From: Streptomyces sp. WZ-12
GTDB lineage: Bacteria > Actinomycetota > Actinomycetes > Streptomycetales > Streptomycetaceae
DNA: 64,000 nt
Direction of reading: 5' to 3'
Assembly (NCBI RefSeq): GCF_028898845.1
Contig: NZ_CP118574.1
Coordinates: 5,987,001 to 6,051,000, forward strand
Made by a program: the position numbers and the translations under genes. Shown here in pieces: positions 2,161-43,937 of this stretch. The number at the start of each line of letters is the position of its first letter. Positions within the stretch are counted from its first letter, which is position 1. The notes under the pieces were generated by a model that worked only from the letters and a program-made list of their open reading frames with translations, searched no databases and was not told the DNA's origin.

Positions 2161-2821
2161 ACGTTGTCGGCTTTCCCGCCGTGGGGGTTGCTGTTTGCGC
2201 CTTGCGGCGCGGGCTGAGTTGGTCCGCTGCCGGTCCGCTGCGCGGGGCTGTTGGGGTGCGGTGACGGACCTCCGGGGTGGGTGTGCAGGACTGCTTCGCT
2301 TTACGTCCTGCACACCCACCCCTCCGGCCCGTCCCCTCCCGTTGGAGGGTGGTGAAAGATGGTGGGTGCCACGTCCTGCCGGTGGGTCAACTCGGGCCGT
2401 TGGGTTGAGTGGTGACCGTCAGAAGACGTGTGAGCCTGCGTGGTGACTGTACGGGGACGCTTGAGCCTGCGTGGTGACTGTAAGAGGACGGGTGGCCCTG
2501 GCAACTGGGTGGTGACCGTCAGAGGACCACAGTGGCCGGCCCCAACTCACCTTCTTCCCACCCCTCAACGGGAGGGGACGGGCCGGAGGGGGGGGTGTGC
2601 CAGACGTAAAGCGAAGCAGTCTGGCATGCCGCCCCCGGAGGCCCGTCACCGCAACCCGACAGCCCCGCGCAGCGGACCAGACAACCCCACCCGCCCCGCG
2701 TAGCGGACCAGACAACTCAAGCCGCCCCGCGCAGCGGACCGGCAGCGGACCGGCACCGTCCCGCGCCGTTGGCGTAATCAACGGCGAGCAACCCCCGCGG
2801 CGGGACGGCCAACAACGTGGG
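2161..2821. repeat. Composite palindromic intergenic element, copy 1
   Basis: This copy fills most of the 1-kb gap between the CorC-like gene and the deaminase-like gene. The left arm (from 2161) and right arm (to 2821) are inverted copies: the block reading CGTTGTCGGCTTTCCCGCC at the left returns as its complement at the right end, as do the TCCGCTGCGCGGGGC blocks. Hairpin 1 (2274-2291 with 2305-2322) has a perfect 18-bp stem. Hairpin 2 (about 2598-2605 with 2619-2626, plus weaker outer pairs) is in the opposite orientation. Both have the shared 13-base loop. The centre has 31-base-spaced copies of GGTGACYGT at 2411, 2442 and 2473, and another at 2511. ORFs here have no plausible protein. 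Confidence 0.85.
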
Positions 2822-2855
2822 AAGCCCGCCAAGCGCAGCGAATACGCTGGGGCGC

Positions 2856-3218
2856 ATGACCGACTCCGCACCGCTGGATCCCGAAGACCGCAAGATCATC
2901 ACGCTCGCGCGTTCGGCGCGGGCCCGCAACGGCGTCCCGGAGGGCGCCGCCGTCCGCGACGAGACCGGCCGCACCTACGTCGCGGGCACCGTCGCGCTGG
3001 ACTCCCTCAAGCTCAGCGCGCTCCAGACGGCCGTCGCGATGGCCGTCGCCAGCGGCGCCACGTCCCTGGAGGCCGCGGCCGTGGTCACCGACGCCGAGCA
3101 GGCCGCCGACGCCGACCGGGCGGCCGTCCGCGACCTCGGCGGCCCGGACACCCCGGTCCTGGTGGCCGCCCCTGACGGCACCCTGCGCGCCAGCACCGCG
3201 GCCGGTCCGTCGGTCTGA
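2856..3218 (+). CDS. Cytidine-deaminase-like protein without zinc ligands
   Basis: A 120-residue protein conserved beside era in Streptomyces. The sequence around residues 10-75 (A-R-S-A-R-A-R-N-G-V-P-E-G-A-A-V-R-D, then T-Y-V-A-G and L-S-A-L-Q-T-A-V-A-M-A-V) follows the fold of small tetrameric cytidine deaminases. However, the catalytic H-A-E and P-C-x-x-C zinc motifs are absent: T-x-x-A replaces C-A-E, and there is no cysteine at all. Catalysis by the usual mechanism is therefore unlikely; a binding or structural role is inferred. ATG at 2856 is chosen because upstream in-frame sequence is repeat-derived. A terminator follows at 3227-3257. Confidence 0.75.
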   Translation: MTDSAPLDPEDRKIITLARSARARNGVPEGAAVRDETGRTYVAGTVALDSLKLSALQTAVAMAVASGATSLEAAAVVTDAEQAADADRAAVRDLGGPDTPVLVAAPDGTLRASTAAGPSV

Positions 3219-3226
3219 CCGTCCCC

Positions 3227-3257
3227 GGGCGGGGCGCCGTACCGACGCGCCCCGCCC
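3227..3257 (+). terminator. Hairpin terminator after the deaminase-like gene
   Basis: GGGCGGGGCGC at 3227-3237 pairs perfectly with 3247-3257 across a 9-base loop, eight bases after the stop. It separates this gene from era. Confidence 0.7.
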
Positions 3258-3324
3258 CGGCTCCCCCGTCGGACGGAGCGGCGGATGGTCGGAGCGACCG
3301 CGGGGATCGGGGAGAATGGGCGCC

Positions 3325-4263
3325 ATGAGCGTTCGTACCGAGTCCACCGTCCCGCACCGCGCCGGCTTCGCCTGCTTCGTCGGCCGCCCCAACGCGGGCA
3401 AGTCCACCCTGACGAACGCTCTCGTCGGGACGAAGGTGGCGATCACCTCCAACCGCCCGCAGACCACCCGCCACACCGTCCGCGGCATCGTGCACCGCCC
3501 CGACGCCCAGCTCGTGCTGGTCGACACCCCGGGCCTGCACAAGCCGCGCACGCTGCTCGGCGAGCGGCTCAACGACGTGGTCCGCACCACCTGGTCCGAG
3601 GTCGACGTGATCGGTTTCTGCCTCCCGGCTGACCAGAAGATCGGCCCCGGCGACCGCTACATCGCCAGCGAGCTGGCCGACATCAAGAAGACGCCCAAGG
3701 TCGCCATCGTCACCAAGACCGACCTGGTCGACTCCAAGGCGTTGGCCGCCCAGCTCCTCGCGATCGACCAGCTCGGCAAGGAGCTGGGCATCGAGTGGAC
3801 CGAGATCATTCCGGTGTCGGCCGTCGGCGACAAGCAGGTCTCGCTCCTCGCCGACCTCCTCGTCCCGCTGCTCCCCGAGAGCCCGGCCCTCTACCCGGAG
3901 GGCGACCTCACCGACGAGCCGGAGCAGGTGATGGTCGCCGAGCTGATCCGCGAGGCGGCACTGGAGGGCGTCCGCGACGAGCTGCCGCACTCGATCGCCG
4001 TCGTCGTCGAGGAGATGCTGCCTCGCGAAGACCGCCCCGCCGACAAGCCGCTGTTGGACATCCACGCCAACGTCTACATCGAGCGCCCCAGCCAGAAGGG
4101 GATCATCATCGGCCCCAAGGGCAAGCGGTTGAAGGAGGTCGGCACGAAGTCCCGCAAGCACATTGAGGCGTTGCTCGGGACGCCGGTCTTCCTCGACCTC
4201 CACGTGAAGGTCGCCAAGGATTGGCAGCGGGACCCTAAGCAGCTCCGCAAGCTGGGGTTTTAG
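3325..4263 (+). CDS. era: GTPase Era
   Basis: Essential ribosome-assembly GTPase that binds the 3' end of 16S rRNA. It has 312 residues. The P-loop G-R-P-N-A-G-K-S is near residues 18-25, with D-T-P-G (G3), T-K-T-D (G4) and V-S-A-V (G5) in order. A C-terminal KH domain carries I-I-I-G-P-K-G-K-R-L (about 255-264), and the protein ends D-P-K-Q-L-R-K-L-G-F. ATG 3325 is preferred over in-frame ATG 3316 because GGGGAG lies 10 bases before it and almost touches the earlier codon. The stop is only four bases before composite element 2. Confidence 0.97.
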   Translation: MSVRTESTVPHRAGFACFVGRPNAGKSTLTNALVGTKVAITSNRPQTTRHTVRGIVHRPDAQLVLVDTPGLHKPRTLLGERLNDVVRTTWSEVDVIGFCLPADQKIGPGDRYIASELADIKKTPKVAIVTKTDLVDSKALAAQLLAIDQLGKELGIEWTEIIPVSAVGDKQVSLLADLLVPLLPESPALYPEGDLTDEPEQVMVAELIREAALEGVRDELPHSIAVVVEEMLPREDRPADKPLLDIHANVYIERPSQKGIIIGPKGKRLKEVGTKSRKHIEALLGTPVFLDLHVKVAKDWQRDPKQLRKLGF

Positions 4264-4267
4264 GCTT

Positions 4268-4740
4268 CCCGCGTTGTCGGCTTTCCCGCCGTGGGGGTTG
4301 CTGTTCTTTGCGCCTGCGGCGCAAGAGCTTTGGTCCGCTGCGCGGGGCTTTCGGGGTGCGGTGACGGGCCTGCGGGGTGGGTGTGCAGGACTGCTTCGCT
4401 TTACGTCCTGCACACCCACCCCTCCGGCCCGTCCCCTCCCGTGGGTGGGTGGGAAAGATGGTGGGTGCCACGTCCTGCCGGTGGGCCAACTCGGGCCGCT
4501 GGGTTGAGTGGTGACCGTAAGAGGACCCGTCACCTCGGCCCCAACTCACCTTCTTCCCACCCCTCAACGGGAGGTGGCGGGTCTTCGGGGCCGGTATGCC
4601 AGACGTAAAGCGAAGCAGTCTGGCATACCGGCCCCGAAGACCCGCCACCGCACCCAACAGCCCCGCGCAGCGGCCAACAAAGCCTGCGCCGCAGGCGCAA
4701 AGAACAGCAACCCCCGCGGCGGGAAAGCCAACAACGTGGG
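4268..4740. repeat. Composite palindromic intergenic element, copy 2
   Basis: This is the most compact full copy and occupies nearly all of the space between convergent era and the inhibitor gene. The two outer arms (about 4268-4390 and 4620-4740) are almost perfect inverted copies, including TTTGCGCCTGCGGCGCA and its complement. Hairpin 1 at 4374-4391/4405-4422 is identical to the first hairpin of copy 1. Hairpin 2 (4573-4604/4618-4649) has a perfect 32-bp stem. The centre has a single 31-bp-type unit (GGTGACCGTAAGAGGAC at 4511). Whether it is a terminator, a mobile element or a chromosomal-structure site cannot be told from one window. Confidence 0.87.
4573..4649. repeat. Perfect 32-bp stem, 13-nt loop hairpin
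   Basis: The left arm 4573-4604 and right arm 4618-4649 are exact reverse complements. The loop GTAAAGCGAAGCA is the complement of the TGCTTCGCTTTAC loop found in the oppositely oriented hairpins. It is the longest of nine related hairpins in the window. Confidence 0.9.
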
Positions 4741-4750
4741 AGGCAAAAAC

Positions 4751-5017
4751 CTACGCGCCTTCTTTGAGCACGCGAGTGATCAACTCCCGCTGCTCGTCGG
4801 TGAGATCGGGGTCCGCGCAGTAGGCCGTCTTGCCGTCGACGGTGAGGGCGTAACGGAAGCCGTCGGGGACGCCGGTCGGCGGTGCGGCGTGCGCCGCGGC
4901 CATCGCGTGCGCGGCGAGGGCGTGCCATGCGGTGGCGTCGGGGCGGTCGGTCGTGTCGACCTCGGCGCGTCGCTCGATGGCGGTGAAGCCGCCCGTGCGG
5001 CGGATGTGGATGTGCAT
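4751..5017 (-). CDS. Emfourin-type inhibitor of M4 metalloprotease
   Basis: An 88-residue protein starting M-H-I-H-I-R-R-T-G-G-F and ending in a D-L-T-D-E-Q-R-E-L-I helix. This pattern (beta-strand start with R-x-G-G-F, aromatic/acidic middle, C-terminal helix) and its position directly downstream of a protealysin-type M4 protease fit the emfourin family, which inhibits the neighbouring protease inside the cell. It starts 88 bases after the protease stop on the same strand, so co-transcription is likely. The gap contains GGGGCGGG (5036-5043) facing CCCGCCCC (5091-5098), with GTCGCG/CGCGAC inside, a possible attenuating structure. It has no signal peptide. Confidence 0.82.
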   Translation of the reverse strand: MHIHIRRTGGFTAIERRAEVDTTDRPDATAWHALAAHAMAAAHAAPPTGVPDGFRYALTVDGKTAYCADPDLTDEQRELITRVLKEGA

Positions 5018-5105
5018 GGGGGAGTCCTACCCGTTGGGGCGGGAGTAGTCGCGCGCCAGGAGGTGACACGCGACCCAGGGAGGCGCGACCCCCGCCCCTG
5101 AGGGG

Positions 5106-8250
<3,145 letters not shown>

Positions 8251-8274
8251 GCCCGTTCGCACCCCCTGCGCGCT

Positions 8275-8311
8275 ACGGCCCCGTCGCTCCCGCCCGGAGC
8301 GGCGGGGCCGT
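8275..8311 (+). terminator. leuA terminator
   Basis: ACGGCCCCGTCGCTCC (8275-8290) pairs with 8296-8311 through a 16-bp stem with one T-G wobble and a 5-base loop. Confidence 0.85.
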
Positions 8312-8476
8312 CCCGTGCGCCCGGCGTCCCGTACACATCGCGTACGCATCCGCGCCGGTATTCCGGCCAGGCGTCCGGCCGTTGTCCGATACGAGGTACT
8401 GACGCCGCATCACCGATGTGGCTAACATCACGTAACGAACGGCGAAGAGGCCGCGGCATGGCGGAGGGCTGACGTG

Positions 8477-9196
8477 ATGCGCAACGTATGTGTGGTGGGG
8501 GTGCGCACCTCGTGGCGGACCGTTGCCGACGGTGAGTTCTTCTGTCCCGACTGCGGCGGCGACCGCAACTACCTCCGCCGCACCGGCCGGCGCCGCCTGC
8601 TCGTCCTCGGCGTCCCCGTCCTCGGCCGCGGCGACGCCGGCCCGATCCTCGAATGCGTCGCCTGCCAGGGCCGCTTCGGGCTGGACGCGCTCGACCACCC
8701 GACCACCGTACGGCTCTCGGCGATGCTCCGGGACGCCGTCCACACCCTGACCCTGGCGCTGTTGGCGGCCGGCGGCACGGCCTCCCGCACGGTCCGGGAC
8801 GCCGCGGTCACCGCGGTCCGCGCGGCCGGCTCCGCCGACTGCACCGAGGACCACCTGCTGACCCTGCTCGCCGCGCTCGCCGCCGACACCGGCCGGATGA
8901 CCGGCACCTACGAGGCGGCCACCGGCGGCCACTGCGCACACCGGGGGCTCGACCCCTGCGGCACCGCGCTGGCCATAGAGCTCCACGAGGCGCTGGAGCC
9001 GCTGGCGCCCCATCTCGCCCCCGCCGGGCGGGAGTCGCTGCTCCTCCAGGGCGCCCGGATCGCGCTGGCCGACGGCCCGTGCAGCCCCGCCGAGCGCGAG
9101 GTGCTGAGCACCGCGGGCGATGCGCTCACGCTCCGCCCGCAGGACGTGGACCGGCTGGTGGCTGCGGCGGCGCGGACGCCGCGGTATCCCGGCTGA
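8477..9196 (+). CDS. TerB-like tellurite-resistance-family protein with N-terminal zinc ribbon
   Basis: A 239-residue soluble protein. The first 65 residues hold two C-x-x-C pairs (F-F-C-P-D-C and I-L-E-C-V-A-C), a zinc ribbon. The remainder is a helical TerB-like domain with duplicated L-x-x-A-A-x-I-A-L-A-D-G-x-x-S-P-A-E-R type segments near the C terminus. The name reflects fold similarity; a role in tellurite resistance is not shown. The ribosome site GGAGGG at 8463-8468 fits ATG 8477 (8 bases) better than GTG 8474 (5 bases). It converges on the P450 gene across a shared terminator at 9227-9275. Confidence 0.7.
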   Translation: MRNVCVVGVRTSWRTVADGEFFCPDCGGDRNYLRRTGRRRLLVLGVPVLGRGDAGPILECVACQGRFGLDALDHPTTVRLSAMLRDAVHTLTLALLAAGGTASRTVRDAAVTAVRAAGSADCTEDHLLTLLAALAADTGRMTGTYEAATGGHCAHRGLDPCGTALAIELHEALEPLAPHLAPAGRESLLLQGARIALADGPCSPAEREVLSTAGDALTLRPQDVDRLVAAAARTPRYPG

Positions 9197-9226
9197 GCGG
9201 GGGAGAGGTCTCCCTCCGGAACCGCT

Positions 9227-9275
9227 GACGCCCCGCGTCGCCGCCGGCTACGAGCCGGGGGCGACGCGGGGCGTC
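9227..9275. terminator. Bidirectional terminator between TerB-like and CYP154-type genes
   Basis: GACGCCCCGCGTCGCC (9227-9242) is a perfect 16-bp complement of 9260-9275. Within the loop CCGGC and GCCGG can pair again. It lies between convergent genes. Confidence 0.85.
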
Positions 9276-9352
9276 GAACGTCGGGCGGGTGATGCGTCGT
9301 TCAGCCCGCTGGCCGGACTACAACCGGGCTGTAGGGACCGGTCGCGGACGCC

Positions 9353-14863: not shown

Positions 14864-15095
14864 CGAGATCCTCGTTCGGGGGCTTACGGGGATGTCTCGG
14901 TCGCCACGGCTGCCGTGCCGCCGAACCTCACCGGATGCTACCTGCCGCTAGACACGCCGACAGGGGTCCTTGACGTGCGGGGACGGAGAAGTACCGAAGG
15001 TCACGTTAGCTGTTGATGACCGCTCAGTAACGAGATGCGGCCCCGTCGTCCTGAATGGACGGCGGGGCCACGGGTACCTCGTGGGTGAAATGCGG

Positions 15096-23703: not shown

Positions 23704-24285
23704 CTACTGCCGCAGGCCGCGCAGTACCAGGTCCCGCACCGTCTCGAAGTCCGTGGTGATCTCCGGGCGGGACCACTCCTCGGCGTAACAGGGGTCGTGG
23801 AAGCGGCCGGTGGCGGCGAAGACGGCGTGCGCGGTGGTGGTGGGCGGGTCGGCGCGGAACGCGCCCTCCGTGACGCCCGCCTCGATGATCTCGGCCAACT
23901 GCCCCTCAAGATCACTGACGTGCCGGTCGACCACGCCGCCGCTCTCCCCGATCAACGTCATGTACGTGGCGAAGAGTTCGGGGTCGTCACCGGCCTTGTG
24001 CCGCTTGGCCTGGAACAGCGTGGCCAACCAGCGGCCCAGCCGCTCCTCGGCGGGGCCGTCCTCCTCGACGATGGCCGCCAACTCCCGGCTCGTACGGTCC
24101 AACCAACGCGCCGTGACCGCCTCCCGCAGCGCCGTCTTCGTACGGAAGTGGCGGTACACGCTGCCGTGACTCACGCCCAGCGCCCGCGCGACATCGACGA
24201 CGGTGGCCTTCGCCGGCCCATACCGGCGCAGCACCTCCTCGGTGGCTTCGAGGATCCGCTCGGGCGTCAACGTCTCGGGGGGCAT
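23704..24285 (-). CDS. TetR-family transcriptional regulator
   Basis: A 193-residue repressor. The N-terminal helix-turn-helix is near residues 8-55 with V-V-D-V-A-R-A-L-G-V-S-H-G-S-V-Y-R-H-F-R-T-K. The C-terminal ligand-binding domain resembles a TetR_C type with F-A-T-Y-M-T-L-I-G-E-S-G-G. The target is unknown. The nearest gene on the same strand, the aldo/keto reductase, is upstream beyond a 1.1-kb repeat element, so common control is uncertain. Confidence 0.9.
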   Translation of the reverse strand: MPPETLTPERILEATEEVLRRYGPAKATVVDVARALGVSHGSVYRHFRTKTALREAVTARWLDRTSRELAAIVEEDGPAEERLGRWLATLFQAKRHKAGDDPELFATYMTLIGESGGVVDRHVSDLEGQLAEIIEAGVTEGAFRADPPTTTAHAVFAATGRFHDPCYAEEWSRPEITTDFETVRDLVLRGLRQ

Positions 24286-24490
24286 GGGAGGGGCTGGCCT
24301 TTCACGAAAGCGGTGCTCTTCTTATGTATGGACCGTATCGTCTGCGACTGGCTTGCTTCCCACGTTGTCGGCTTTCCCACCGTGGGCCTGCGGCCGGCTG
24401 TTGCCCACGTTGCTGGCTTTCCCGCCGCGCGGGTTGCTGTCTTTTGCGCCTGCGGCGCGGGCCGATCCGCTGCGCTTGGCTTGTTGCCCA

Positions 24491-24622
24491 CGTTGCTGGC
24501 TTTCCCGCCGTGCCGCTGCGCGGGGCCTCGCCCGCGTTGGTGGCTTTCCCGCCGTGCCGCTGCGCGGGGCCTCGCCCGCGTTGGTGGCTTTCCCGCCGTG
24601 CCGCCTGCGGCGAGCCGGTCCG
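24491..24622. repeat. 44-bp tandem repeat, three units
   Basis: CGTTGSTGGCTTTCCCGCCG recurs at 24491, 24535 and 24579, exactly 44 bases apart. The first two units carry GTGCCGCTGCGCGGGGCCTC after it; the third diverges at its end. Local duplication has expanded this arm. Confidence 0.85.
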
Positions 24623-24923
24623 CTGCCGGTCCGCTGCGCGGGGCGGGGCGAGTTGTCTGGTCCGCTGCGCGGGGCGGGTGGGGTTGTTGTCCGCTGCGCG
24701 GGGCTGTTGGGTTGCGGTGACGGGCCTCCGGGGGCGGCATGCCAGACTGCTTCGCTTTACGTCTGGCACACCGCCCCCTCCGGCCCGTCCCCTCCCGTTG
24801 TGGGGGTGGATTTCTCTGGGTGGGGGTTGATCATGGTGGTCGCCTAACGGTCACCGCCCCCGCCCAGTTGCTTGGGCCGCCAGTCCACCGACGGTCACCC
24901 TTCAGGCTCTCGTGTTCTTCTTG

Positions 24924-25171
24924 CGGCCACCGCTCAGCCTCACGCGTCCTTTCACGGTCGCTGCTCAGGCTCACGCGTCCTCTGACGGTCACCACTCAGC
25001 CTCACGCGTCCTCTGACGGTCACCACGCAGGCTCACGCGTCCTTTCACGGTCACTGCTCAAGCTCATGCGTCTTCTGACGGTCACCACGCAGGCTCATGC
25101 GTCTTCTGACGGTCACCGCTCAAGCTCAGGCGTCCTCTGACGGTCACCACTCAACCCAGCGGCCCGAGTTG
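24924..25171. repeat. 31-bp tandem array at the centre of element copy 3
   Basis: CGGTCACC-type heads start at 24924, 24955, 24986, 25017, 25048, 25079, 25110 and 25141: eight units spaced exactly 31 bases. Each continues CTCAGGCTCACGCGTCCTCTGA with a few substitutions; the last unit is divergent after CTCA. There is no variable spacer, so this is not a CRISPR array. The same unit in the opposite strand orientation occurs in copies 1 and 2. Confidence 0.92.
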
Positions 25172-25498
25172 GCCCACCGGGCGGACGTGGCACTCACCGT
25201 TTTTCACCACCCTCCAACGGGAGGGGACGGGCCGGAGGGGTGGGTGTGCAGGACGTAAAGCGAAGCAGTCCTGCACACCCACCCCGGAGGTCCGTCACCG
25301 CACCCCGACAGCCCCGCGCAGCGGACAACAACCCCACCCGCCACGCGCAGCGGACCGGCAGCGGGCCAGACGACTCGATCCGCCCCGCGCAAGCGGACCG
25401 GCAGCGGACCCCGCCCGCCGTAGGCGGCTACGGCGGGAGAGCCGGCAACGTGGGCTGAGGCCCGCCTCGTGGCGCGGCGGGCCGTAGGCCCGCTCCGC

Positions 25499-30724: not shown

Positions 30725-30798
30725 GGTTGAACGCTACAACGATCCGGTCCGTTCGGCCCCCGGCGGGGCCTCCGGTCCAGTGCGGGACAATGGGGTGC

Positions 30799-33535: not shown

Positions 33536-36280
<2,745 letters not shown>

Positions 36281-36368
36281 CCAACGGGGCCACCGCGCCC
36301 CACCGAACCCCCGGAACCGGCGGCGGGCCGCCCTGAACCCTCAACGCCCGTCGCCACTCCGGTACCCG

Positions 36369-36405
36369 CCGAGGGCGGCACCTTGTGCGGAGGTGCCGCC
36401 CTCGG
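36369..36405 (+). terminator. ppdK terminator
   Basis: CCGAGGGCGGCACCT (36369-36383) pairs perfectly with 36391-36405 across a 7-base loop. Its stem shares GGCGGCACCT with the palindrome at 36720-36755. Confidence 0.9.
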
Positions 36406-36439
36406 CCCCGTGCGCGCCCGCGGGCCGCGCCGGCCGCGG

Positions 36440-36615
36440 TCAGGCGCCGCGCACGGCGCCCGCCGGCCAGATCACCTCGACCGGCAGGCCCGCCGTACTG
36501 ACGCCGACCAGTTTCCGGCCGGCTGTGCGTGCAGCAGCTCCGCCAGGGCGTCCTGGACCAGGCGCGCGGTGCGGCCCGCCGGGTCCAGGTGCCCGGTCGC
36601 GGCGAGGGTGGTCAT
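36440..36615 (-). pseudogene. Possible small gene broken by a frameshift
   Basis: From ATG 36615 the frame reads M-T-T-L-A-A-T-G-H-L-D-P-A-G-R-T-A-R-L-V-Q-D-A-L-A-E-L-L-H-A, a good helical start. It then loses sense and stops at 36472. In another frame from about 36520 to a TGA at 36440 the sequence reads A-G-R-K-L-V-G-V-S-T-A-G-L-P-V-E-V-I-W-P, which looks like a genuine beta-rich C terminus. A single-base indel near 36523 would join them into a protein of about 58 residues. It sits between two terminators, as a small gene would. I cannot name a family. Confidence 0.35.
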
Positions 36616-36719
36616 GGCGGCTTCCGCCGGGCGGTCGGGGCCGTGCGGGGCGGGCCCGGCGCTTCGCCGACGACCGTATACGGCCAACGCCCCGCGGTGT
36701 AGGGCCATTTGACGCACGG

Positions 36720-36755
36720 CGAAGGCGGCACCTGTGCGCACAGGTGCCGCCTTCG
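36720..36755. repeat. Perfect 36-bp palindrome without a loop
   Basis: CGAAGGCGGCACCTGTGC at 36720-36737 is followed at once by its exact complement. It could be a terminator hairpin (with the centre unpaired) for a minus-strand or plus-strand transcript, or a protein-binding site. The rest of 36756-37036 holds the upstream region of the next gene; I see nothing else there. Confidence 0.75.
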
Positions 36756-37036
36756 TTTCTCCGGACTCCCCCCTCGGGAGCTGCCGTCCTCCCAGTCGGC
36801 GTGGGAGGCGGCCTCCAACGGACGCCGCGGGGCCGGTTGTTTGCCCATCACCCCCCACGGGATCGAGCAATCCGGGCCGTGCGCACCGCCGTTGAATTGC
36901 CTCCAGCATTCACCGCAGGCAGGGCCCCTCGCGACCCTTTTCAAGTCTGGCCAAAAGGGCATGGTGACCGCACGTGGCGGCGTGCATACTCAGGCGTGCC
37001 GGGGGCCCAGGGAGATAACCAAAGAGTGGGGGTTCA

Positions 37037-38035
37037 GTGTTACGCGTCCATTTCAGTGGACTCGATCTGGCCCGCGTGCGGATAGCCGCACGCCCCGATG
37101 CGCTGTGGGAGACGGTCTTAAGCTTTCACCGACTTCGCGATCGGCGCGACGATTCCACGTTCGGTGGTTGGCGATCGGAAACCCGCGGAAGGTTGAATGG
37201 CGAAACGCGTCTGCTGGCACCGCTGGTGCCCAGCCGCGGCTATTTCCCGGATTTCCTGACGCCCGCGGAGGGCCTGCTCGGCATGGACGAGGCGCTCGCC
37301 GCGCTGCGCGAGACGCCCGCCGGCCGGCTGCACGACGAACTCGTCCGGCTCACGCCGGTCGCCGGCCGTCCGCTGCCCGCCTGGATACGCGCCATGGCCG
37401 ACGGCGAGACCCGGGCGCTGGGCCGGCTCGCCGGGATACTGCAGAGCTATCACGACGCCGCCGTCGCCCCCTACTGGCACCGCGTCCAGAGCCGCATAGA
37501 GGCCGACCGGGCGGCCCGCGGCCGGGCCCTCCTGGACGGCGGCGCGGACCGGCTGTTGGCGTCGCTGCCCCCGATGATGCGCTGGCGCCCGCCCGTCCTG
37601 GAGGCCGACTACCCGGTCGACCGGGACCTCCATCTGGGCGGTCGGGGGCTGCTCCTGCTGCCCTCGTACTTCTGCCGCCGCACCCCGGTCACCTTCTACA
37701 ACCCCGACCTGACGCCCGTCCTGGTCTACCCGGTCGAGCACCCGGCGCCCCGGCTCACCCGGCCCGCCCCGCCGGACCGTTCGCTGGGCCGCCTCGTGGG
37801 CCAGACCCGCTCGGCGATCCTGCACGGCATCGGCGTCGGCTGCACCACCAGCGAACTCGCCCGCCGGGTCGACGTCTCGCTGGCCTCCGCCAGCCAACAC
37901 GCCACCGTCCTGCGGGACGCCGGCCTGCTCTCCACGCTGCGCCAGGGCAACGCCGTGCTGCACACCCTGACGCCGCTGGGCGCCGCACTGCTGCGCGGCG
38001 CCCGCCTCGACGGGACGGCGGCCTTCGAGCGGTGA
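37037..38035 (+). CDS. ArsR-like winged-helix regulator with a TTA codon
   Basis: A 332-residue protein. The C-terminal 90 residues form a winged helix (L-G-R-L-V-G-Q-T-R-S-A-I-L-H to T-S-E-L-A-R-R-V-D-V-S-L-A-S-A-S-Q-H-A-T-V-L-R-D-A-G-L-L). The long N-terminal region, beginning L-R-V-H-F-S-G-L-D-L-A-R-V-R-I-A, is typical of a Streptomyces ArsR subfamily and has no named activity. Leucine 28 is encoded by TTA (37118-37120), so translation should need the bldA tRNA. The first 60 codons are less GC-biased. GTG 37037 follows GGGGG. It converges on the dioxygenase gene. Confidence 0.82.
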   Translation: MLRVHFSGLDLARVRIAARPDALWETVLSFHRLRDRRDDSTFGGWRSETRGRLNGETRLLAPLVPSRGYFPDFLTPAEGLLGMDEALAALRETPAGRLHDELVRLTPVAGRPLPAWIRAMADGETRALGRLAGILQSYHDAAVAPYWHRVQSRIEADRAARGRALLDGGADRLLASLPPMMRWRPPVLEADYPVDRDLHLGGRGLLLLPSYFCRRTPVTFYNPDLTPVLVYPVEHPAPRLTRPAPPDRSLGRLVGQTRSAILHGIGVGCTTSELARRVDVSLASASQHATVLRDAGLLSTLRQGNAVLHTLTPLGAALLRGARLDGTAAFER

Positions 38036-38086
38036 GCCCCGCCGCGGGCCCGGGACCCGGCCCGAAGGCCCGAGATCACCACGCGC

Positions 38087-39037
38087 CTAGAACGGCCGGT
38101 CCCCGGCGATCGCCACCCGCTCGGCCACCCGCCGCCGCGACCCGTAGTCGAAGACCGCGTAGTGCTGGGTGGCGCGGTTGTCCCAGAACGCCACGTCGCC
38201 GGCCCGCCAACGGAACCGCACCTGGAACTCCGGCACCTGCGCCTGCTGGAACAGCAACCGCAGCAGCCGGTCGCTCTCCTCCTGCGGCAGGCCCACGATC
38301 CGGGTGGTGAACGACGCGTTGACGAACAGCATCCGCCGCCCGGTCTCCGGGTGCCGGCGCACCACCGGATGGACAACCGGCGGGAACTCATCCTGGAACG
38401 GCGCAAGTTGAGTGGCGGAGTAGAAACGGGAGAACCCCGGGAGATAGTCGTGCACGGCCCGGGCCCCATCGATCCGCTCCCGGATTTTCGGCGGCAAATT
38501 GTCGTACGCCGCCGCCATATCGGCCCACAGCGTGTCCCCGCCCGACTCCGGCACCTCGCGCAACTGCAACACCGCGCCCATCGCCGGCCGCTCGCGGAAG
38601 GTTACGTCCGTGTGCCATACGTTCTCGAACGTCGGCACGCCACCGGCCGCCTTGTCAAACCGGACCACCTCCTTCGCGTCCCCCGGGGCGAGTAGCGGGT
38701 TGGTCTCCAACTCCCCCCAATGGCAAGCGAATTGACGCTGTGCGGCCGGGCTGAGGTGCTGGTCACGGAAGAACAGCACCTTCCACTCCAGCAGCGCCCG
38801 GTTCAGCTCCGCCCGCAGCGCGGCGGACAGCGGGCGGGCCAGATCCAGTCCCCTGATCTCCGCCCCGATGGTCGCGGCCAGCGGCACCACCTCGAACAGC
38901 TCGTAGGGGCGGTCCGGCCAGTCCTCCGGGGTGCGGCGCAGGATCCGGCGGCCCTCGTAGAGGCCGTCGGCGGGGATGCGGTGCGGGCGCAGGGCGGGGG
39001 CGGGAGCGGGGGAGTCGGGGGCGTTGAGGAGCGTCAA
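38087..39037 (-). CDS. TauD/TfdA-family Fe(II)/2-oxoglutarate dioxygenase
   Basis: A 316-residue oxygenase. The iron ligands are H and D in W-H-T-D-V-T-F and the distal histidine in A-T-Q-H-Y-A-V-F-D-Y. The 2-oxoglutarate arginine is in the R-R-R-V-A-E-R-V-A-I end. The family includes taurine, alkylsulfonate and phenoxyacetate oxygenases; the substrate here is not proven. I choose TTG 39037 because AAGGAGG lies 5 bases upstream; ATG 39109 has no ribosome site and adds a Pro-rich stretch. It is convergent with the TTA-containing regulator. Confidence 0.88.
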   Translation of the reverse strand: MTLLNAPDSPAPAPALRPHRIPADGLYEGRRILRRTPEDWPDRPYELFEVVPLAATIGAEIRGLDLARPLSAALRAELNRALLEWKVLFFRDQHLSPAAQRQFACHWGELETNPLLAPGDAKEVVRFDKAAGGVPTFENVWHTDVTFRERPAMGAVLQLREVPESGGDTLWADMAAAYDNLPPKIRERIDGARAVHDYLPGFSRFYSATQLAPFQDEFPPVVHPVVRRHPETGRRMLFVNASFTTRIVGLPQEESDRLLRLLFQQAQVPEFQVRFRWRAGDVAFWDNRATQHYAVFDYGSRRRVAERVAIAGDRPF

Positions 39038-39146
39038 CGGGTCCTCCTTCGGGCCGAGTTGGGGAAGGGGAGAAGGGTGGGAAAGGAGAAGGGGAGGGTG
39101 CGGCGGCACGGGGCGCGCGGGCGTCCGGCGGGAGTGCCGCGGGGTC

Positions 39147-39287
39147 TCAGACGCCGGGACAGCGGGCCGGCGGGGGCGAGCCCACCCGGCCGCGGCGGCG
39201 CAGGAAGCTCAGGCCGCGGGGTGCGCACGCGCCGTGGGGGCCGCGGTCGCGCGGCGCCGCCTCACGGACGAACGGGTGCGTGCACAT
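39147..39287 (-). other. Possible small upstream ORF before the dioxygenase gene
   Basis: A 46-codon frame begins M-C-T-H-P-F-V-R-E-A-A-P-R-D-R-G and contains three cysteines. It ends 110 bases before the TTG start of the dioxygenase. Cysteine-containing leader peptides are known to control sulfur genes in actinobacteria, which is why I note it; the usual leader pattern R-R-H-V-D is absent. The remaining sequence of the 346-base gap (39038-39383) has no other visible feature. Confidence 0.3.
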
Positions 39288-39383
39288 GGCACGCACCGTA
39301 CCCCATCCGCGGCCCGGTGCCCACGGGTTCGGGCCACCGGGCCACGAGGCCCGCCCGGTGACGCGGGGCGGACGGGCGCCGGC

Positions 39384-40220
39384 TCAGTCGTCGATGCCGC
39401 TGCGCTCCACCCCCGCCACGATGTACCGCTGGAGCAGCAGGAACACCACCACCAGCGGGACGATCGAGACGCCCGCGGCCACGAACAACTCGTGCAGATT
39501 GAGGTTCTGCGCGGTGGTGAACGTGGAGAGCGCCACCTGCACCGTCCAGGCCGACTGGTCCTGGCCGATCACCAGCGGCCACAGGAAGGAGTTCCACGCC
39601 CCGATGAAGACGATGGTGCCGACCGCCGCGAACACCGGCCGGGCGTTGGGCACCACGATCCGCCAGTACGTCCGCCAGTACCCCAGGCCGTCCACCCGCG
39701 CCGCGTCCTCCAACTCCTTGGGGAAGCCCAGGAAGTACTGGCGGAAGACGAAGCAGGCGAAGGCGCTGAACAGGGTCGGGATGACCAACCCGCGCAGGGT
39801 GGAGATCCAGCCGAGTGTGGAGACCAGGACGAAGCTGGGGACGAAGGTCACCGCCGCCGGGACCATCAGCGTGCCCAGGACGGCGTAGAAGACCACCGAG
39901 GCGTACCGGTACGGGATGCGGGCCAGGCCGTAGCCGGCCATCGAGGCCAGCACCACCGTGCCGACGGTCGTCGACACCGCGATCACCGCGGAGTTGACCA
40001 GCGCCCGGGCCAGCGGCAGATCCGGGTCGGCGAACACCTCGGTCAGGTTGGACCAGTGCACGGTACGCGGCAAGAACGTCCAGTCAGGCGCGGTGATGTC
40101 GGACTCGCTCGCCAGGCCGTTGCGGACCAGCAGATAGAACGGGACGAGGAACAGCAGCGCCAGCGCCACCAACAGCACCACGCGCAGCGCCCGTCCGGCC
40201 CGGGTCAGGGCATCGTGCAC
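39384..40220 (-). CDS. Sugar-type ABC transporter permease (MalG-like)
   Basis: A 278-residue permease with six hydrophobic segments. The EAA loop reads E-L-E-D-A-A-R-V-D-G-L-G-Y-W-R-T-Y-W-R-I-V-V-P (about 185-207), which docks the ATPase. GTG 40220 follows AAGGAGG that overlaps the end of the upstream permease gene. It is third in the operon order binding protein, MalF-like, MalG-like. No ATPase is encoded here; in Streptomyces such importers commonly use a shared ATPase (MsiK) encoded elsewhere. Confidence 0.93.
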   Translation of the reverse strand: MHDALTRAGRALRVVLLVALALLFLVPFYLLVRNGLASESDITAPDWTFLPRTVHWSNLTEVFADPDLPLARALVNSAVIAVSTTVGTVVLASMAGYGLARIPYRYASVVFYAVLGTLMVPAAVTFVPSFVLVSTLGWISTLRGLVIPTLFSAFACFVFRQYFLGFPKELEDAARVDGLGYWRTYWRIVVPNARPVFAAVGTIVFIGAWNSFLWPLVIGQDQSAWTVQVALSTFTTAQNLNLHELFVAAGVSIVPLVVVFLLLQRYIVAGVERSGIDD

Positions 40221-40226
40221 GGCGTC

Positions 40227-41150
40227 TCACTCCTCCTTGCGGCCGAGTCCGAACCAACGGGCCTGGCCCACCGTCGCCACCGCGATGATCAGGGCCAGGA
40301 TCACCGCGCCCGCACTGCCCAGCCCGAGGTTCTGGTCCCGGCCGAGCGCGGTGTAGTAGAGGTACACCAGCGGTGGGCGGGCGTACGGGGGGTAACCGCG
40401 GGCGTCGCTCAGCAGGTTGTAGAACTCGTCGAACGCCTGGAAGGAGTTGATGACCAGGAGCAGCAGCACCGCCACCGAGGTGGCCCGCAGTTGCGGGAAG
40501 GTGAGGTGCCTGAAGACCTGCCAGCCCGGCCGGGCCCCGTCCACCGCCGCCGCCTCGTACAACTGCGGGGAGATCCGCTGGAGTCCGGCCAGGAAGAGGA
40601 TCATGTAGAAGCCGGCCTGGAGCCAGAGCCGCACGGTGACGATGACCAGCCAGTACCAGGGCGGACTGGTGGTGGACAGCCACGCCACCTGGTCGATCCC
40701 GAACCAGCCGAGCACCGTGTTCGCCAGCCCGAAGCGCACCCCGTTGAACAGCGACAGCTTCCAGATCAGCGACGCCACGACGTACGAGCACGCGGTCGGC
40801 AGGAAGAACACCGAGCGGAAGAACGCGCGGGCCACCCGCAGCCGGTTGACCATCAGCGCCAGCGCGAGCGACAGCGCGAAGGTGGCCGGCACGATGAACG
40901 CGGTGAACAGCAGGAAGGTGCCCAGGCTGCCGAGGAACGCGTCGTCGCCCAGCATCGCGGCGTAGTTGTCCAGGCCGATGAAGTGCGTCGGGTTCACCGT
41001 GTTGTGCGCGTCGAAGAAGCTGAGGTAGACGCTCCACGCCAGCGGTACGTAGGTGAACAGGCCCAGCCCGACCGCGAACGGCCCGACGAACACCCAGAAC
41101 CACAGATTCCGCCGCTGCGGGCCGAGCAGCCGGGCCGTCAGCGCGCTCAC
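40227..41150 (-). CDS. Sugar-type ABC transporter permease (MalF-like)
   Basis: A 307-residue permease with about six membrane helices. Its EAA loop is L-Y-E-A-A-A-V-D-G-A-R-P-G-W-Q-V-F-R-H-L-T-F-P. The GTG start overlaps the stop of the solute-binding protein gene as GTGA, so the two are coupled. It pairs with the MalG-like permease to form the channel. Confidence 0.93.
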   Translation of the reverse strand: MSALTARLLGPQRRNLWFWVFVGPFAVGLGLFTYVPLAWSVYLSFFDAHNTVNPTHFIGLDNYAAMLGDDAFLGSLGTFLLFTAFIVPATFALSLALALMVNRLRVARAFFRSVFFLPTACSYVVASLIWKLSLFNGVRFGLANTVLGWFGIDQVAWLSTTSPPWYWLVIVTVRLWLQAGFYMILFLAGLQRISPQLYEAAAVDGARPGWQVFRHLTFPQLRATSVAVLLLLVINSFQAFDEFYNLLSDARGYPPYARPPLVYLYYTALGRDQNLGLGSAGAVILALIIAVATVGQARWFGLGRKEE

Positions 41151-42406
41151 GTGTTCTTGACCCGGGCCAGCTCGGCCCCGACCTTCCGCAGCACCGCCCG
41201 CAACTCGGTCTCCGGATGCGCCCCGTCCTTGATGATCCGGCTCAGCGCGTCCTGGTAGGCGTTGCGGTCCGCGCTGGTCCACAACAGCGGCTCGGCGTAG
41301 CCGTGTTCGGTCGCCAGCCGCACCGCCTCGGCCGCCGGCCCCTGCCGGAGCTGCCGGGCCCGCTTCGCCAGGGAGAGCCGGGCCGGGATGTGGAACCCGT
41401 AGGACAGCGCGAAGTCCTGCTGGAAGTCGGTCCGGTCGATCCACAGCCACTTGGCGAACGCCTTGGCCGCCGCCGGGTCCTTGCTGCGGGCGTTCACCGC
41501 GGACGCGTAGGCGCCCACCGGGACGGTCGGCTTCCCCGCAGGGCCGTCCTTCGGGAACGGCAGCACCCCGAAGTCGTCGCCCAGCGCCCTGGTGATCTGC
41601 GGCAGCGCCCACAGGCCCGACCACTGCATGGCGGTCAGCCCCTGGACGAAGGCCGCCGGGTCGGACCAGTCGGTGGGCGCGCCCAGCAGCAGCGACCTGT
41701 CCGCGTACAACTGCCGGATCTTCGCCAACACCCGGGCCGCGGCCGGATCGTCGAACCCCGGCTTGCCGTCCTCGGTGATCAGGCTCAGCCCCGCGGCGAA
41801 CAGCGGTGTCCCGCTGAGCACCCCGGCGCCGCCGTCGTTGCCGAGGAACAGCCCCTTCACCTTGCCGGTGGTCAACTTCCCGGCCGCGTCCACCAGTTCG
41901 TCGACGCTCTGCGGCGGCTGTACGCCGGCCTCCTTGAGCAGGCTCTTGCGGTAGTAGAGCACCTGGGTGTCGACGGTCTGCGGGATGCCCCAGATCTTGT
42001 CCCGCCAGATCTTCGGCGCCAGCACCGCCGGGTTGAAGTCGTCCTTCACCGGCGCGACGAGGTCGGTCAGGTCCGCCACCTGACCTCCCTGGATCTGCTC
42101 CAGCAGCGGGCCGTTGACCTCGAAGACGTCGGGGCCCGAGTCGGTGAGCAGCGCGGCGGCGGTCTGCCGGTCGTAGTCGCCCGGCCGCCACTGGACGCTG
42201 ACGTTCGCCTTCTTGTACGCGGCGGCGTAACGCCGCACCGCCTGTTGGGCGCCGGGTTCGCCGTACTGGTGGTACCACTGCGCTAGCGCTGGGCCCGAAC
42301 CGGTGTTGTTGCGCCCGGTGTTGGTGCCGCAGGCCGTGGCCGTCGCGCCGGCCAGTGCGAGGCCGCCTGCGGCGGCGAGGAGCCGTCTTCTGCCGATCAC
42401 CGTCAT
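41147..42406 (-). CDS. Extracellular solute-binding lipoprotein (sugar ABC importer)
   Basis: A 419-residue family-1 binding protein. The N terminus I-G-R-R-R-L-L-A-A-A-G-G-L-A-L followed by lipobox-like T-A-C-G (cysteine about 26) suggests a twin-arginine-type lipoprotein signal. The mature part has the usual Y-K-K-A-N-V-S-V-Q-W and G-P-D-V-F-E-V-N-G patterns. It presumably binds a carbohydrate; the specificity is unknown. No LacI/GntR-type operator is obvious upstream, and composite element 4 begins about 55 bases before the start. Confidence 0.92.
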   Translation of the reverse strand: MTVIGRRRLLAAAGGLALAGATATACGTNTGRNNTGSGPALAQWYHQYGEPGAQQAVRRYAAAYKKANVSVQWRPGDYDRQTAAALLTDSGPDVFEVNGPLLEQIQGGQVADLTDLVAPVKDDFNPAVLAPKIWRDKIWGIPQTVDTQVLYYRKSLLKEAGVQPPQSVDELVDAAGKLTTGKVKGLFLGNDGGAGVLSGTPLFAAGLSLITEDGKPGFDDPAAARVLAKIRQLYADRSLLLGAPTDWSDPAAFVQGLTAMQWSGLWALPQITRALGDDFGVLPFPKDGPAGKPTVPVGAYASAVNARSKDPAAAKAFAKWLWIDRTDFQQDFALSYGFHIPARLSLAKRARQLRQGPAAEAVRLATEHGYAEPLLWTSADRNAYQDALSRIIKDGAHPETELRAVLRKVGAELARVKNT

Positions 42407-42459
42407 GGGACGTAACTTTGCCGGATCGCGGCGGCGTGAACCCCCACGTTTTGGGTTTG

Positions 42460-42745
42460 CTTCCCACGTTGTTGGCTCTCCCGCCGTGGCGGCTGATGCC
42501 GTGGCGGCTGATGCCGCAGGTCCCGTACGTCGTCGGCTTCCCCGCCGTGGTGGGGTTTCCGCCTTCGGCGGAGGGGTGTGTTGGGCGGGGGCGTCTGGTG
42601 GGTCTGTGGTGGCGGGTGCGGTCCTCCGGGGGCGGGTTTTCGGACTGCTTCGCTTGACGTCCGAAAACCCCGCCCCCTCCGGCCCGCCCCCTCCCGTCGG
42701 TGGACGCGCCTCCGCCCGGTGGGGGAGAGGGGAGGGCGGGGTGGG
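42460..42745. repeat. Composite element, copy 4 (left half only)
   Basis: Only the left arm and one hairpin are present. The arm shares most of its sequence with the left arm of copy 5, from CCCACGTTGTTGGCTCTCCC to the GCCTCCGCCCGGTGGGGG block. The hairpin is 42634-42645/42659-42670 with a perfect 12-bp stem; its 13-base loop has one change (TTGAC for TTTAC). GTGGCGGCTGATGCC is duplicated in tandem. It lies between divergent genes, so it cannot be a simple terminator. Confidence 0.8.
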
Positions 42746-42802
42746 GGTGGGGAAAACCGTTCGTCCGCGGGGCGTTGGGGCTGTCACCCTTACGGGATGG
42801 GG

Positions 42803-43339
42803 ATGTACGAGGTGGAGGGCGAGGCGCTGCTTCTCGGGGGGCGGGCCGGGGTCGGGAAGACGTCGGTGGCGTGGGAGGTCTCGGCACTGTTGCGGGGGGC
42901 GGGGGTGGGGCACGCCGTGGTGGAGGGGGACTTCATGGGGCAGATCCACCCGGCGCCGGAGGGCGATCCGTCGCGCTCTGCGATCACCGAGCGCAACTTG
43001 GCGGCGGTGTGGGCGAATTACGCCCGGGTCGGCTGTCGGCGGCTGCTCTACACCAACACCGTGAGCGTGCTGCCGGAGAGCGCGGGGATGTTCGAGCGGG
43101 CGATGGGGCCCGGGGTGCGGATCGTCCGGGTGCTGCTCACCGCCACGGACGCCACCACCAAGGCGCGGCTCACCGGCCGGGAACGTGGCTCGGAGCTCGC
43201 CCAGGAGTTGGCCAACAGCGCCCGCAAGGCCCGGATGTTGGATGCGCGGGTGGCCGATGACGTGCTGCGGGTGCCCACTGATGGGCGGTCCGTGCCGGCG
43301 GTCGCGGCGGATGTGGTCGCCGCGGTGGGTTGGGTCTGA
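42803..43339 (+). CDS. Small P-loop ATP-binding protein, probable kinase
   Basis: A 178-residue protein with Walker A G-G-R-A-G-V-G-K-T-S near residues 13-22. V-V-E-G-D-F follows at the second strand, as in APS kinase- and gluconate-kinase-like folds. R-L-T-G-R-E-R-G-S-E could be the lid. The phosphoryl acceptor cannot be told. ATG 42803 is preferred, with ATG 42797 as alternative. The gene is bracketed by two directly repeated element arms (42460-42745 and 43340-43620), an arrangement prone to recombination. Confidence 0.75.
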   Translation: MYEVEGEALLLGGRAGVGKTSVAWEVSALLRGAGVGHAVVEGDFMGQIHPAPEGDPSRSAITERNLAAVWANYARVGCRRLLYTNTVSVLPESAGMFERAMGPGVRIVRVLLTATDATTKARLTGRERGSELAQELANSARKARMLDARVADDVLRVPTDGRSVPAVAADVVAAVGWV

Positions 43340-43937
43340 CCCCACGTTGTTGGCTCTCCCGCCGTGGCGGCTGACGCCGCAGGTCCCGTACGTCGTCGGC
43401 TGCCCCGCCGCGGGGGTTGCTGTTCTCCGCCTTCGGCGGAGGGGTGTGTTGGGCGGCGGCGCCCCGCTGGGTGGTGGGTGGCGGGTGCGGTCCTCCGGGG
43501 GCGGGGTTTTCGGACTGCTTCGCTTTACGTCCGAAAACCCCGCCCCCTCCGGCCCGCCCCCTCCCGTTGGGTGGGCGCCTCCGCCCGGTGGGGGTGAGAG
43601 GAGAGGGGGCGGAGTGGGGTGCTGTCTGTATCCCTGCTTCCGCCGGAGGGGGGAGCAGGAATCGGGGTGGTGCTTGTACCTCTTCTCCTACCGGGGCGGG
43701 GTCCCGTCCACGTGCGGGAGGGGGCGGTGCCGGAGGGGTGGGTGTTTCGGACGTAAAGCGAAGCAGTCCGAAACACCCACCCCGGAGGCACCGAACCCGG
43801 CACCCACCACCCAGCGGGGCACCCCGCCCCAACAACCCTTCCGCCGAAGGCGGAAACCCCACCACGGCGGGGAAGCCGACGACGTACGGGACCTGCGGCA
43901 TCAGCCGCCACGGCGGGGCAGCCGGCAACGTACGGGA
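43340..43937. repeat. Composite palindromic intergenic element, copy 5
   Basis: A full copy between the convergent kinase and transporter genes, starting at the kinase stop codon. Left hairpin 43497-43515/43529-43547 has a perfect 19-bp stem; right hairpin 43735-43752/43766-43783 has a perfect 18-bp stem in the inverse orientation. Left and right arms mirror each other, including GTACGTCGTCGGC and TCCGCCTTCGGCGGA. The central part (about 43600-43730) lacks the 31-bp repeats and is unique sequence. Confidence 0.85.

Follow-up and report, generated by a model that had tools for sequence, protein, structure and literature searches.

A dispersed composite palindrome at gene 3' ends in Streptomyces sp. 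WZ-12 and other Streptomyces

The window analysed is a stretch of 64,000 nucleotides (64 kb) of the Streptomyces sp. WZ-12 genome. Five of its intergenic gaps hold copies of a large palindromic element, four full and one half, all close to where the original prediction had placed them. The gene contexts given there were also found: tandem for copies 1 and 3, convergent for copies 2 and 5, and divergent for copy 4. The full copies (1, 2, 3 and 5) are inverted duplications, as had been claimed, and copy 4 consists of a left half only. The parts are named as outer units (O) and large hairpins (H).

2158-2843, no strand assigned: copy 1, full, tandem context; O> at 2161, H> loop motif 2290-2306, 31-bp repeats at about 2406-2536, <H loop motif 2604-2620, <O at about 2798
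4265-4741, no strand assigned: copy 2, full, convergent context; H> 4390-4406, <H 4603-4619
24342-25481, no strand assigned: copy 3, full, tandem context, upstream of a TetR gene; five O>, H> 24746-24762, 31-bp repeat array at about 24893-25184, <H 25253-25269, <O at about 25431
42460-42746, + strand: copy 4, left half only (O> O> H>), subfamily B, divergent context; H> 42644-42660
43340-43937, no strand assigned: copy 5, full, subfamily B, convergent context; H> 43514-43530, <H 43751-43767

The arms of copy 1 (2232-2352/2558-2678) are 88% complementary and those of copy 5 (43447-43566/43715-43834) 83%; copy 5 shares 92% identity with C1:7379360-7379948. The stop codon of era directly precedes copy 2, whose RNA fold reaches -399 kcal/mol vs -226 for 100 shuffles (z -22.8). 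The element in the window is far beyond chance. Used as a query, copy 2 gave 167 genome matches at E<=1e-3, many of which overlap or derive from both arms. In the WZ-12 genome the loop motif was counted 67 times, its reversed control not once. A genome-wide search had been proposed, and other sites do exist: the element occupies 47 places, with both hairpins in 29 of them.

The composite palindrome is built of inward-facing outer units O, one large hairpin H per arm and a variable centre with 31-bp repeats. All 29 two-hairpin copies of the WZ-12 genome have the order H> ... <H. This architecture is mostly unchanged in the named relatives, with an outward order at locus L077. The ends are ragged, with one to five O units, and the number of both 31-bp and O units varies; arms are alike within single copies. 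The expected dispersed composite palindrome was supported: its layout is BIME-like, its two hairpins are opposed, its loop is conserved and it has repeats at its centre.

Stem pairs are 94.5% Watson-Crick in 217 distinct cores, against 62% when shuffled and 37-44% when slid, and compensatory changes keep the stems paired. Only 21 of 3472 stem cells hold G-U-type pairs, a rarity that sets the stems apart from most structured RNAs. The mismatches carry no strand bias, G-T and A-C being found in 20 vs 24 distinct contexts. The loop and a 3x3 internal loop are conserved and the stems vary. The 13-nt loop is near-constant, and one of its strands carries C-GNA-G, which according to the available part of PMC6479982 marks a DNA mini-hairpin of very high stability. 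CTTCG is present in 67 of the 75 tail-anchored hairpins of the WZ-12 genome, which were found without use of the loop. Directly after hairpin H comes CCTCCCG, with no T run. The base N of GNA switches genome-wide between genomes. The 49 loop hits of genome G335 (one mismatch allowed) include only 5 of the TTC form, and all 8 mismatched ones listed read TGC; the H2 tips are GGA in 10 of the 10 listed for G114 and GAA in 10 of the 10 listed for G161. Small-triloop hairpins in general are weakly enriched (3.25 per kb vs 2.70 in other intergenic DNA).

Stop-facing edges of the element lie within 25 bp of the stop codon in 45 of 58 cases, and start-facing edges lie as close in 5 of 32; the counts for other species are 40/52 vs 4/12. 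The gene context is convergent at 20 of 46 places, tandem at 20 and divergent at 6. Among other intergenic regions of at least 50 bp (n=387), 62 are convergent, 223 tandem and 102 divergent. Convergent gaps minus the element have a median of 17 bp, against 66 bp in the comparison. The original prediction had argued that a pure terminator role fails as all gene orientations occur. That argument was not supported, since divergent places are few and the edges hug stop codons; on these grounds a 3'-end role is best supported, and the divergent copies are exceptions to it. No recurrent neighbour gene family emerged as a partner, the 15 largest clusters listed being scattered over all distances from the elements.

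Of 47 windows in each direction, 23 inward and 3 outward ones contain a terminator-like site, as do 8 of 326 native 3' ends. Shuffling the element windows still leaves 16.9 of 47, and a large share of the 23 is thus down to base composition. The inward arms are T-rich. To judge from sequence, the element may stop transcription from both sides. It resembles intrinsic bidirectional terminators in its place at gene 3' ends and in the inward hairpin with a T-rich tail seen in about half of the element windows. It differs from them in being multicopy, in its covarying hairpins and conserved loop, and in the lack of a T run after H.

A first search of 61 genomes (WZ-12 and 60 relatives) found the element in WZ-12 only. 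Genus-wide searches with two hairpin motifs (H1, H2) extended the range to 21 of 392 genomes; some Streptomyces genomes have dozens of copies, 73 H2 hits occur in one genome, and in most others neither motif was detected. G000, G088, G335 and G114 are rich in the element, and genomes close to them, G390, G373 and G218, show few hits to the motif. Twenty-one site groups are common to several species, with site L252 occupied in 11 of 15 genomes, and some species carry the element at sites that are empty in others. Copy 1 is missing in all 8 relatives having both flanks; the site of copy 2 is common to G335, G215 and, truncated, G199, and that of copy 3 to G335 and G199. The empty/occupied pairs inspected (copies 1-3, L149, L259, L176, L262) showed no target duplication, and some pairs look as if about 25-55 bp of native sequence had gone, as judged by eye and assuming which state is older. 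Phages and viral contigs gave no match, and the plasmid search gave one, in a 2.8-Mb replicon of Streptomyces sp. BHT-5-2.

Some genomes rewrite the contents of the element at shared sites. Copies 2 and 3 of G335 resemble each other at 97%, but the same-site copies in WZ-12 at only 64% and 42%. Averaged over species, within-genome homogenisation is modest: aligned columns agree at 0.87-0.90 within a genome, 0.865 at the same site in different species and 0.857 where both site and species differ. In CT34 the copies are of very unequal length, with a value of 0.46 when taken over the longer sequence. Some copying process seems to keep the family alike within a genome.

A search for a correlating transposase had also been proposed. 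Of the 15 H1 genomes counted, among them those richest in H1, 14 lack the Y1_Tnp profile (PF01797); the count leaves out G036, G072, G114 and G361, and control genomes were positive. The domain is present in G218 (H1) and in the H2-bearing G390. Y2_Tnp (IS91-like) was found in 0 of 21 genomes and gave no signal in any control genome either. A RAYT-driven REPIN was rejected on the Y1_Tnp count, and for the same reason the element is not classed as REPIN/BIME. As far as the available text of PMC3116915 describes them, REPINs are hairpin-forming REP doublets, about 100 bp in size. The element shares with these the inverted pairs of conserved hairpins, variable spacer, intergenic position, compensatory changes and singlets as remnants. 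It differs in the length of full copies in the window (about 470-1140 bp), the long stems, the 13-nt loop, the extra O units and the 31-bp repeats. Like BIMEs and GTAG- or CGTC-tagged REPs, as treated in the available parts of PMC2817692 and PMC3733652, it combines opposed hairpins in a mosaic and lies chiefly in tandem and convergent gaps; unlike them it lacks the RAYT gene domain, on the count above, and the GTAG tag. When the outer 26 nt of the 227 cores were scanned crudely, GTAG turned up in 1, GTGG in 54 and CGTC in 3; by this count the hairpin foot does not bear the REPIN tag. The word Streptomyces is absent from the available text of PMC3733652.

The best reading, to which we give about an even chance, is a non-autonomous, structure-recognised DNA repeat that would work like a REPIN or BIME and act as a two-sided 3'-end terminator. 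A trans-acting protein would recognise the hairpins as folded single-stranded DNA or cruciform via the GNA mini-hairpin cap. This protein, or ectopic recombination, might copy the element into gene 3' ends, replacing native 3' DNA, and repeated copying over old copies would homogenise the family. The element could be tolerated or kept because its strong hairpins and its T-rich arms, which read inward, would terminate transcripts entering from either flank. Fixed architecture, stem covariation, the loop recovered without being used as a query, loop switches, stop-codon edges, short convergent gaps, terminator-like sites and the G335 copies count in its favour. Against it count the failure of the transposase searches to find a mobilising gene, the shuffled-window terminator counts, the divergent places, modest homogenisation, the unequal CT34 copies, the missing G-T/A-C strand signal, weak small-triloop enrichment and a loss of native DNA judged by eye. 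A bolder and only tentative version, somewhat unlikely, is a mobile class of gene-end palindromes recognised in folded form via the GNA cap by a putative non-Y1 enzyme, replacing native terminators, supplying two-sided termination and having their loop base rewritten genome-wide in concert.

The 3'-end placement and T-rich inward arms would also suit an RNA-level terminator or mRNA stabiliser under selection, which has no dedicated mobility and spreads only when gene ends, on rare occasions, undergo ectopic recombination and gene conversion with one another. The many sites common to species and the lack of Y1_Tnp fit this account as well; the rarity of G-U-type pairs and a cap that is a DNA mini-hairpin motif (PMC6479982, in its available part) do not, and rare recombination would hardly be expected to yield as many as 47 places in one genome or 73 H2 hits in another. 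We consider it unlikely. More doubtful is a true REPIN/BIME whose RAYT was lost, or is encoded by a lineage outside the genomes compared, leaving orphaned copies. Inverted intergenic hairpin doublets in tandem and convergent gaps recall REPs, as far as PMC3116915 and PMC3733652 describe them in their available parts, whereas the missing Y1_Tnp even in the richest H1 genomes, the single GTAG core, units exceeding REP size and genome-wide loop switches without Y1 speak against it. A classical MITE moved by a DDE transposase is very improbable: the element is short, non-coding and multicopy with inverted ends, as MITEs are, but these ends are ragged, no target duplication was seen at the inspected pairs, the edges keep to stop codons and no autonomous gene-bearing relative was noticed in the loci inspected. 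Functionless palindromes, kept perfect by template-switch correction, grown by tandem duplication and left at 3' ends as selection removes other insertions, would explain Watson-Crick-only stems, similar arms and varying repeat numbers, but hardly the conserved loops between varying stems, nor why tolerated insertions in tandem gaps should hug stop codons, and are just as improbable.

Homology to Streptomyces telomeres was rejected: a comparison with six contig ends of 3 kb each, from G000 and G088, gave a best E of 0.05, although those of G000 are perhaps not genuine telomeres. G088 contig ends do show GC-rich hairpins with CTTCG/CTGCG-type loops, like the element, whose copies nevertheless lack a significant match to the six ends. 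The claim that the element matches no known family was supported: Rfam gave 0 matches in the window at the gathering score, and among the papers listed by literature searches nothing similar appeared for Streptomyces. What survives of the original prediction is thus a dispersed BIME-like palindrome of no matched family, without its argument against a terminator role.

For a repeat that remains, on our preferred reading, a structure-recognised DNA element, the placement at stop codons suggests that it can take over transcription termination beside core genes such as era. The family is a clearly delimited population of repeats, and its genus is one of industrial importance; such populations have been described in other bacteria, and most hosts here lack the transposase domain thought to drive them. 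Because one loop base differs almost genome-wide between close relatives, conversion within a genome can be measured directly. On the practical side, several draft contigs end in or near the motif (for example C53, C57, C83 and C94 of G289; also at L099 and L112).

All five copies of the large composite palindrome claimed for the window in the original prediction exist, and their positions differ from those proposed by a few bases at most:

2158-2843, copy 1, full element
4265-4741, copy 2, full element
24342-25481, copy 3, full element
42460-42746, copy 4, left half
43340-43937, copy 5, full element

The proposed genome search with copy 2, run together with copy 5, revealed at least 47 places in the 9.55-Mb source genome, of the genus Streptomyces. 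These were located by BLAST of both copies on the genome and subsequent searching of 34 20-kb stretches and the window (C1:5987001-6051000). Both hairpins are found at 29 of the 47 places, the remaining 18 being halves or fragments. Copies 4 and 5 belong to a diverged subfamily B, and the sequence at C1:7379360-7379948 is 92% identical to copy 5. All copy 5 matches (n = 134, E ≤ 1e-6) lie at 1.26-7.40 Mb of the first contig (9.17 Mb), and none on the second; the outer 1.2-1.8 Mb of the first contig are free of them, all matches being central. The gap 42746-43340 between copy 4 (half) and copy 5 (full) contains a single gene (42797-43339; 180 aa) that matches no Pfam family at E ≤ 1e-5.

The element is composed of outer units (O, ACGTTGTTGGCTTTCCCGCCG) and hairpin units (H), both motifs being searched with up to four substitutions each. 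The order H> before <H holds in 29 of 29 two-hairpin copies. Where detected, O units lie outside the hairpins and point inward, with 1-5 on the left and 1-4 on the right; no O match occurred outside elements in the 34 stretches and the window (35 in all). The centre contains 31-bp repeats, four in copy 1 and one in copy 2; in copy 3 they form an array at 24893-25184, spaced at 31 bp. Each hairpin comprises a basal stem, an internal loop of 3x3 (often TCC/TCC), an apical stem of 16 bp or, in some, more, and a loop of 13 nt, TGCTTCGCTTTAC. Folded as RNA, the whole of copy 2 reaches -399 kcal/mol, whereas 100 shuffles average -226 (z -22.8), the predicted fold being two hairpins and a central arm on a long outer stem. 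The hairpin region alone, folded as single-stranded DNA, gives z -6.9 and -9.4 for the two strands. At one S. niger locus (L077), the loop motifs at 1973 and 2270 run <H H>, outward, the opposite of the usual order. At another locus (L351, genome G361), four tips of the second hairpin class (H2; the first is H1) lie in the same orientation at 1502-2335 with ~273 bp spacing, a tandem layout that differs from the palindromic one.

The hairpin structure is maintained. In 217 distinct cores of the source genome and relatives, Watson-Crick pairing reaches 94.5% over the 16 apical pairs. Shuffling the 3' letters between sequences lowers this to 62%, and sliding to 37-44%; at 14 of the 16 pairs, three or four Watson-Crick types occur. 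The non-Watson-Crick cells among 3472 number 21 for G-T, 76 for A-C, of which 45 fall on two neighbouring positions, and 93 for other mismatches. Because the distinct contexts number 20 for G-T and 24 for A-C, no strand stands out and the mismatches carry no strand signal. Because the motif searches themselves presuppose part of the loop conservation, hairpins were also collected by the 3' tail alone: CTTCG was present in 67 of 75 such hairpins of the source genome and absent from the other 8 in that orientation. Read on the opposite strand, CTTCG becomes C-GAA-G within GCGAAGC; PMC6479982 describes a sheared G-A pair for GNA loops, with references to Hirao (1994), Yoshizawa (1997) and Zhu (1995). 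The same 13-nt loop was seen in an Acidothermaceae MAG (L177:3850-3900, JAICYF010000026.1) on a hairpin with an unrelated stem of ~15 bp by eye and no O units; by simple arithmetic ~2 chance 19-mer matches are expected in that collection, but not within such a stem. A 954-aa ORF, probably infB, ends shortly before this hairpin.

Gene calls (664 genes, own codon-usage caller) gave both neighbours for 46 of the 47 places: 20 convergent, 20 tandem and 6 divergent, versus 62, 223 and 102 among 387 other intergenic regions of at least 50 bp (Fisher, convergent p = 4e-5, divergent p = 0.049). At the 45 source-genome places of at least 100 bp, stop-facing edges lie a median of 7.5 bp from the stop codon (45 of 58 within 25 bp) and start-facing edges a median of 85 bp from the start (5 of 32). 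Full elements of other species with ends and neighbours present (32 scored, 96 left out) were convergent in 21 cases, tandem in 10 and divergent in one; edges within 25 bp numbered 40 of 52 stop-facing and 4 of 12 start-facing. Non-element DNA in occupied convergent gaps has a median of 17 bp (n = 19), versus 66 bp in other convergent gaps (n = 101, p = 2e-4).

A hairpin with a T-rich tail occurs in 23 of the 47 200-bp windows reading from a gene end into the element, compared with 3 of 47 for the opposite strand and 8 of 326 for native 3' ends; much of this signal stems from base composition, because shuffled element windows give 16.9 of 47. The commonest terminator-like site is the O-unit hairpin CCCGCCGCGCGGG, followed by TTGCTGTTCT. 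The site counts and this tailed hairpin favour reading the element as two inward-facing predicted terminators, for which the divergent copies would be tolerated exceptions.

The correlating transposase envisaged in the original prediction did not emerge: the RAYT domain Y1_Tnp (PF01797) was found in one of 15 H1 genomes (G218) and in the H2-bearing G390, but not in the source genome, in a test leaving out G036, G072, G114 and G361. Y2_Tnp was found in 0 of 21 genomes, but no control genome was positive either. Phages gave no element match, viral contigs no exact motif, and plasmid records one match, chromosome-sized. The main rival explanation is slow ectopic conversion, with no dedicated enzyme. 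The closest kind is that of REPINs and BIMEs (PMC3116915, PMC2817692, PMC6006769 and PMC3733652), which resemble the element in their opposed hairpins, intergenic location and compensatory changes but are smaller, tagged and RAYT-linked. Search listings of the open-licence literature showed no description of such a repeat family in Streptomyces.

The element recurs in other Streptomyces genomes, as the original prediction had proposed to check: the H1 loop motif marks 15 and H2 10 of 392, jointly 21, some via one hit only. With one mismatch allowed, a 16th H1 genome (G317) appears by a single hit, taken for chance. Hosts among the matches listed include S. lydicus, S. nigrescens, S. albospinus, S. 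sioyaensis, S. kronopolitis, S. celluloflavus, S. niger and S. albireticuli. In an era-region tree of 31 genomes, the 10 H1 genomes group together (2 changes versus a shuffled mean of 8.5), with G373 and G390 scored as element-free though both carry H2. H2 was seen beside locus L252 in G161, G372, G373, G390 and G218; its tip is GGAC-TNC-GTCC, which gives GNA on the opposite strand, and the 3x3 internal loop that precedes it resembles that of H1. O units stand in the usual sense at 26 of 30 H2 loci by a loose count, the others being L326, L343 and the tandem loci of G072 and G361.

The loop base changes in concert. With one mismatch allowed, the TTC form makes up 67 of 70 loop hits in the source genome, 9 of 29 in the mixed G199 and 5 of 49 in G335, where the mismatched hits among those listed are TGC in 8 of 8, GCGCAGC on the other strand. 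A genus-wide search of the 392 genomes with one H2 form, N free, gave 73 hits in G114 (GGA in 10 of 10 listed), 35 in G161 (GAA in 10 of 10 listed) and 9 in G318 (GAA in 9 of 9); low-copy genomes, e.g. G372 and G414, have mixed loop bases. The centres of G335 copies 2 and 3 share 97% identity with each other, yet show 64% and 42% to the same-site copies of the source genome, the 42% arising partly because source-genome copy 3 is twice as long. By the longer sequence, identity averages 0.71 within the source genome (median 0.74, 406 pairs), 0.71, 0.80, 0.76 and (in CT34) 0.46 within other genomes, 0.594 at the same site between species (median 0.69, 32 pairs) and 0.576 for different site and species (median 0.61, 1346 pairs). 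Over aligned columns, the values are 0.87-0.90 within genomes, 0.865 at the same site and 0.857 for different site and species; ungapped hairpin cores give 0.74, 0.66 and otherwise 0.62. A shared site therefore raises similarity just slightly above that of chance copies from two species; the averaged rewriting signal is weaker than the G335 case. Loop-base switches point in the same direction. The closer copy lies in the own genome for 46 of 53 same-site pair members, a comparison that favours many-copy genomes.

Occupied sites are shared in 21 groups across loci of many species. Copy 1 was found in 0 of 8 relatives with both flanks, G335 having ~49 bp of other sequence there by eye. Copy 2 starts right after the era stop codon; G335, G215 and, in truncated form, G199 also have an element at this site, unlike G088, G161 and G390. 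At the copy 3 site, the element is found in G335 and G199, and no motif in G161, G390, G088 and G215; the ~1.1 kb in G215 (L276) holds other short tandem repeats without O, H or H2 motifs. No H2 tips occur at the empty copy 1-3 sites. At locus L259, 2 bp are left on either side of the element, and the counterpart in S. sp. NRRL F-4489 is ~50 bp with its own hairpin (by eye). Across 16 genomes this element is present in G335 and absent in 5 with both flanks, while 10 have the left flank only, without the motif in the sequence covered; MspMP-M5 carries it. L252 shows the element or remnants in 11 of 15 assessable genomes, G287, G110, G204 and G075 being element-free with 29-169 bp. The older state was inferred from outgroups at L252 and from eight relatives at copy 1, and assumed at other sites. 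No target duplication was seen by eye at the empty/occupied pairs inspected (copies 1-3, L149, L259, L176 and L262). Judged by eye, ~25-55 bp of native DNA seem to have been replaced at copy 1, L149, L259 and L262; no DNA loss is required at L252. Just ahead of copy 1 (~2100-2160), a hairpin GGCTGAAGAGCC...CTTCAGCC is conserved in relatives. A TATGGAC-CGTA type sequence adjoins the start of copy 3 (~24325-24350), in front of the TetR gene 23704-24285; relatives have a GGACGGTACC palindrome there, perhaps the operator of this gene.
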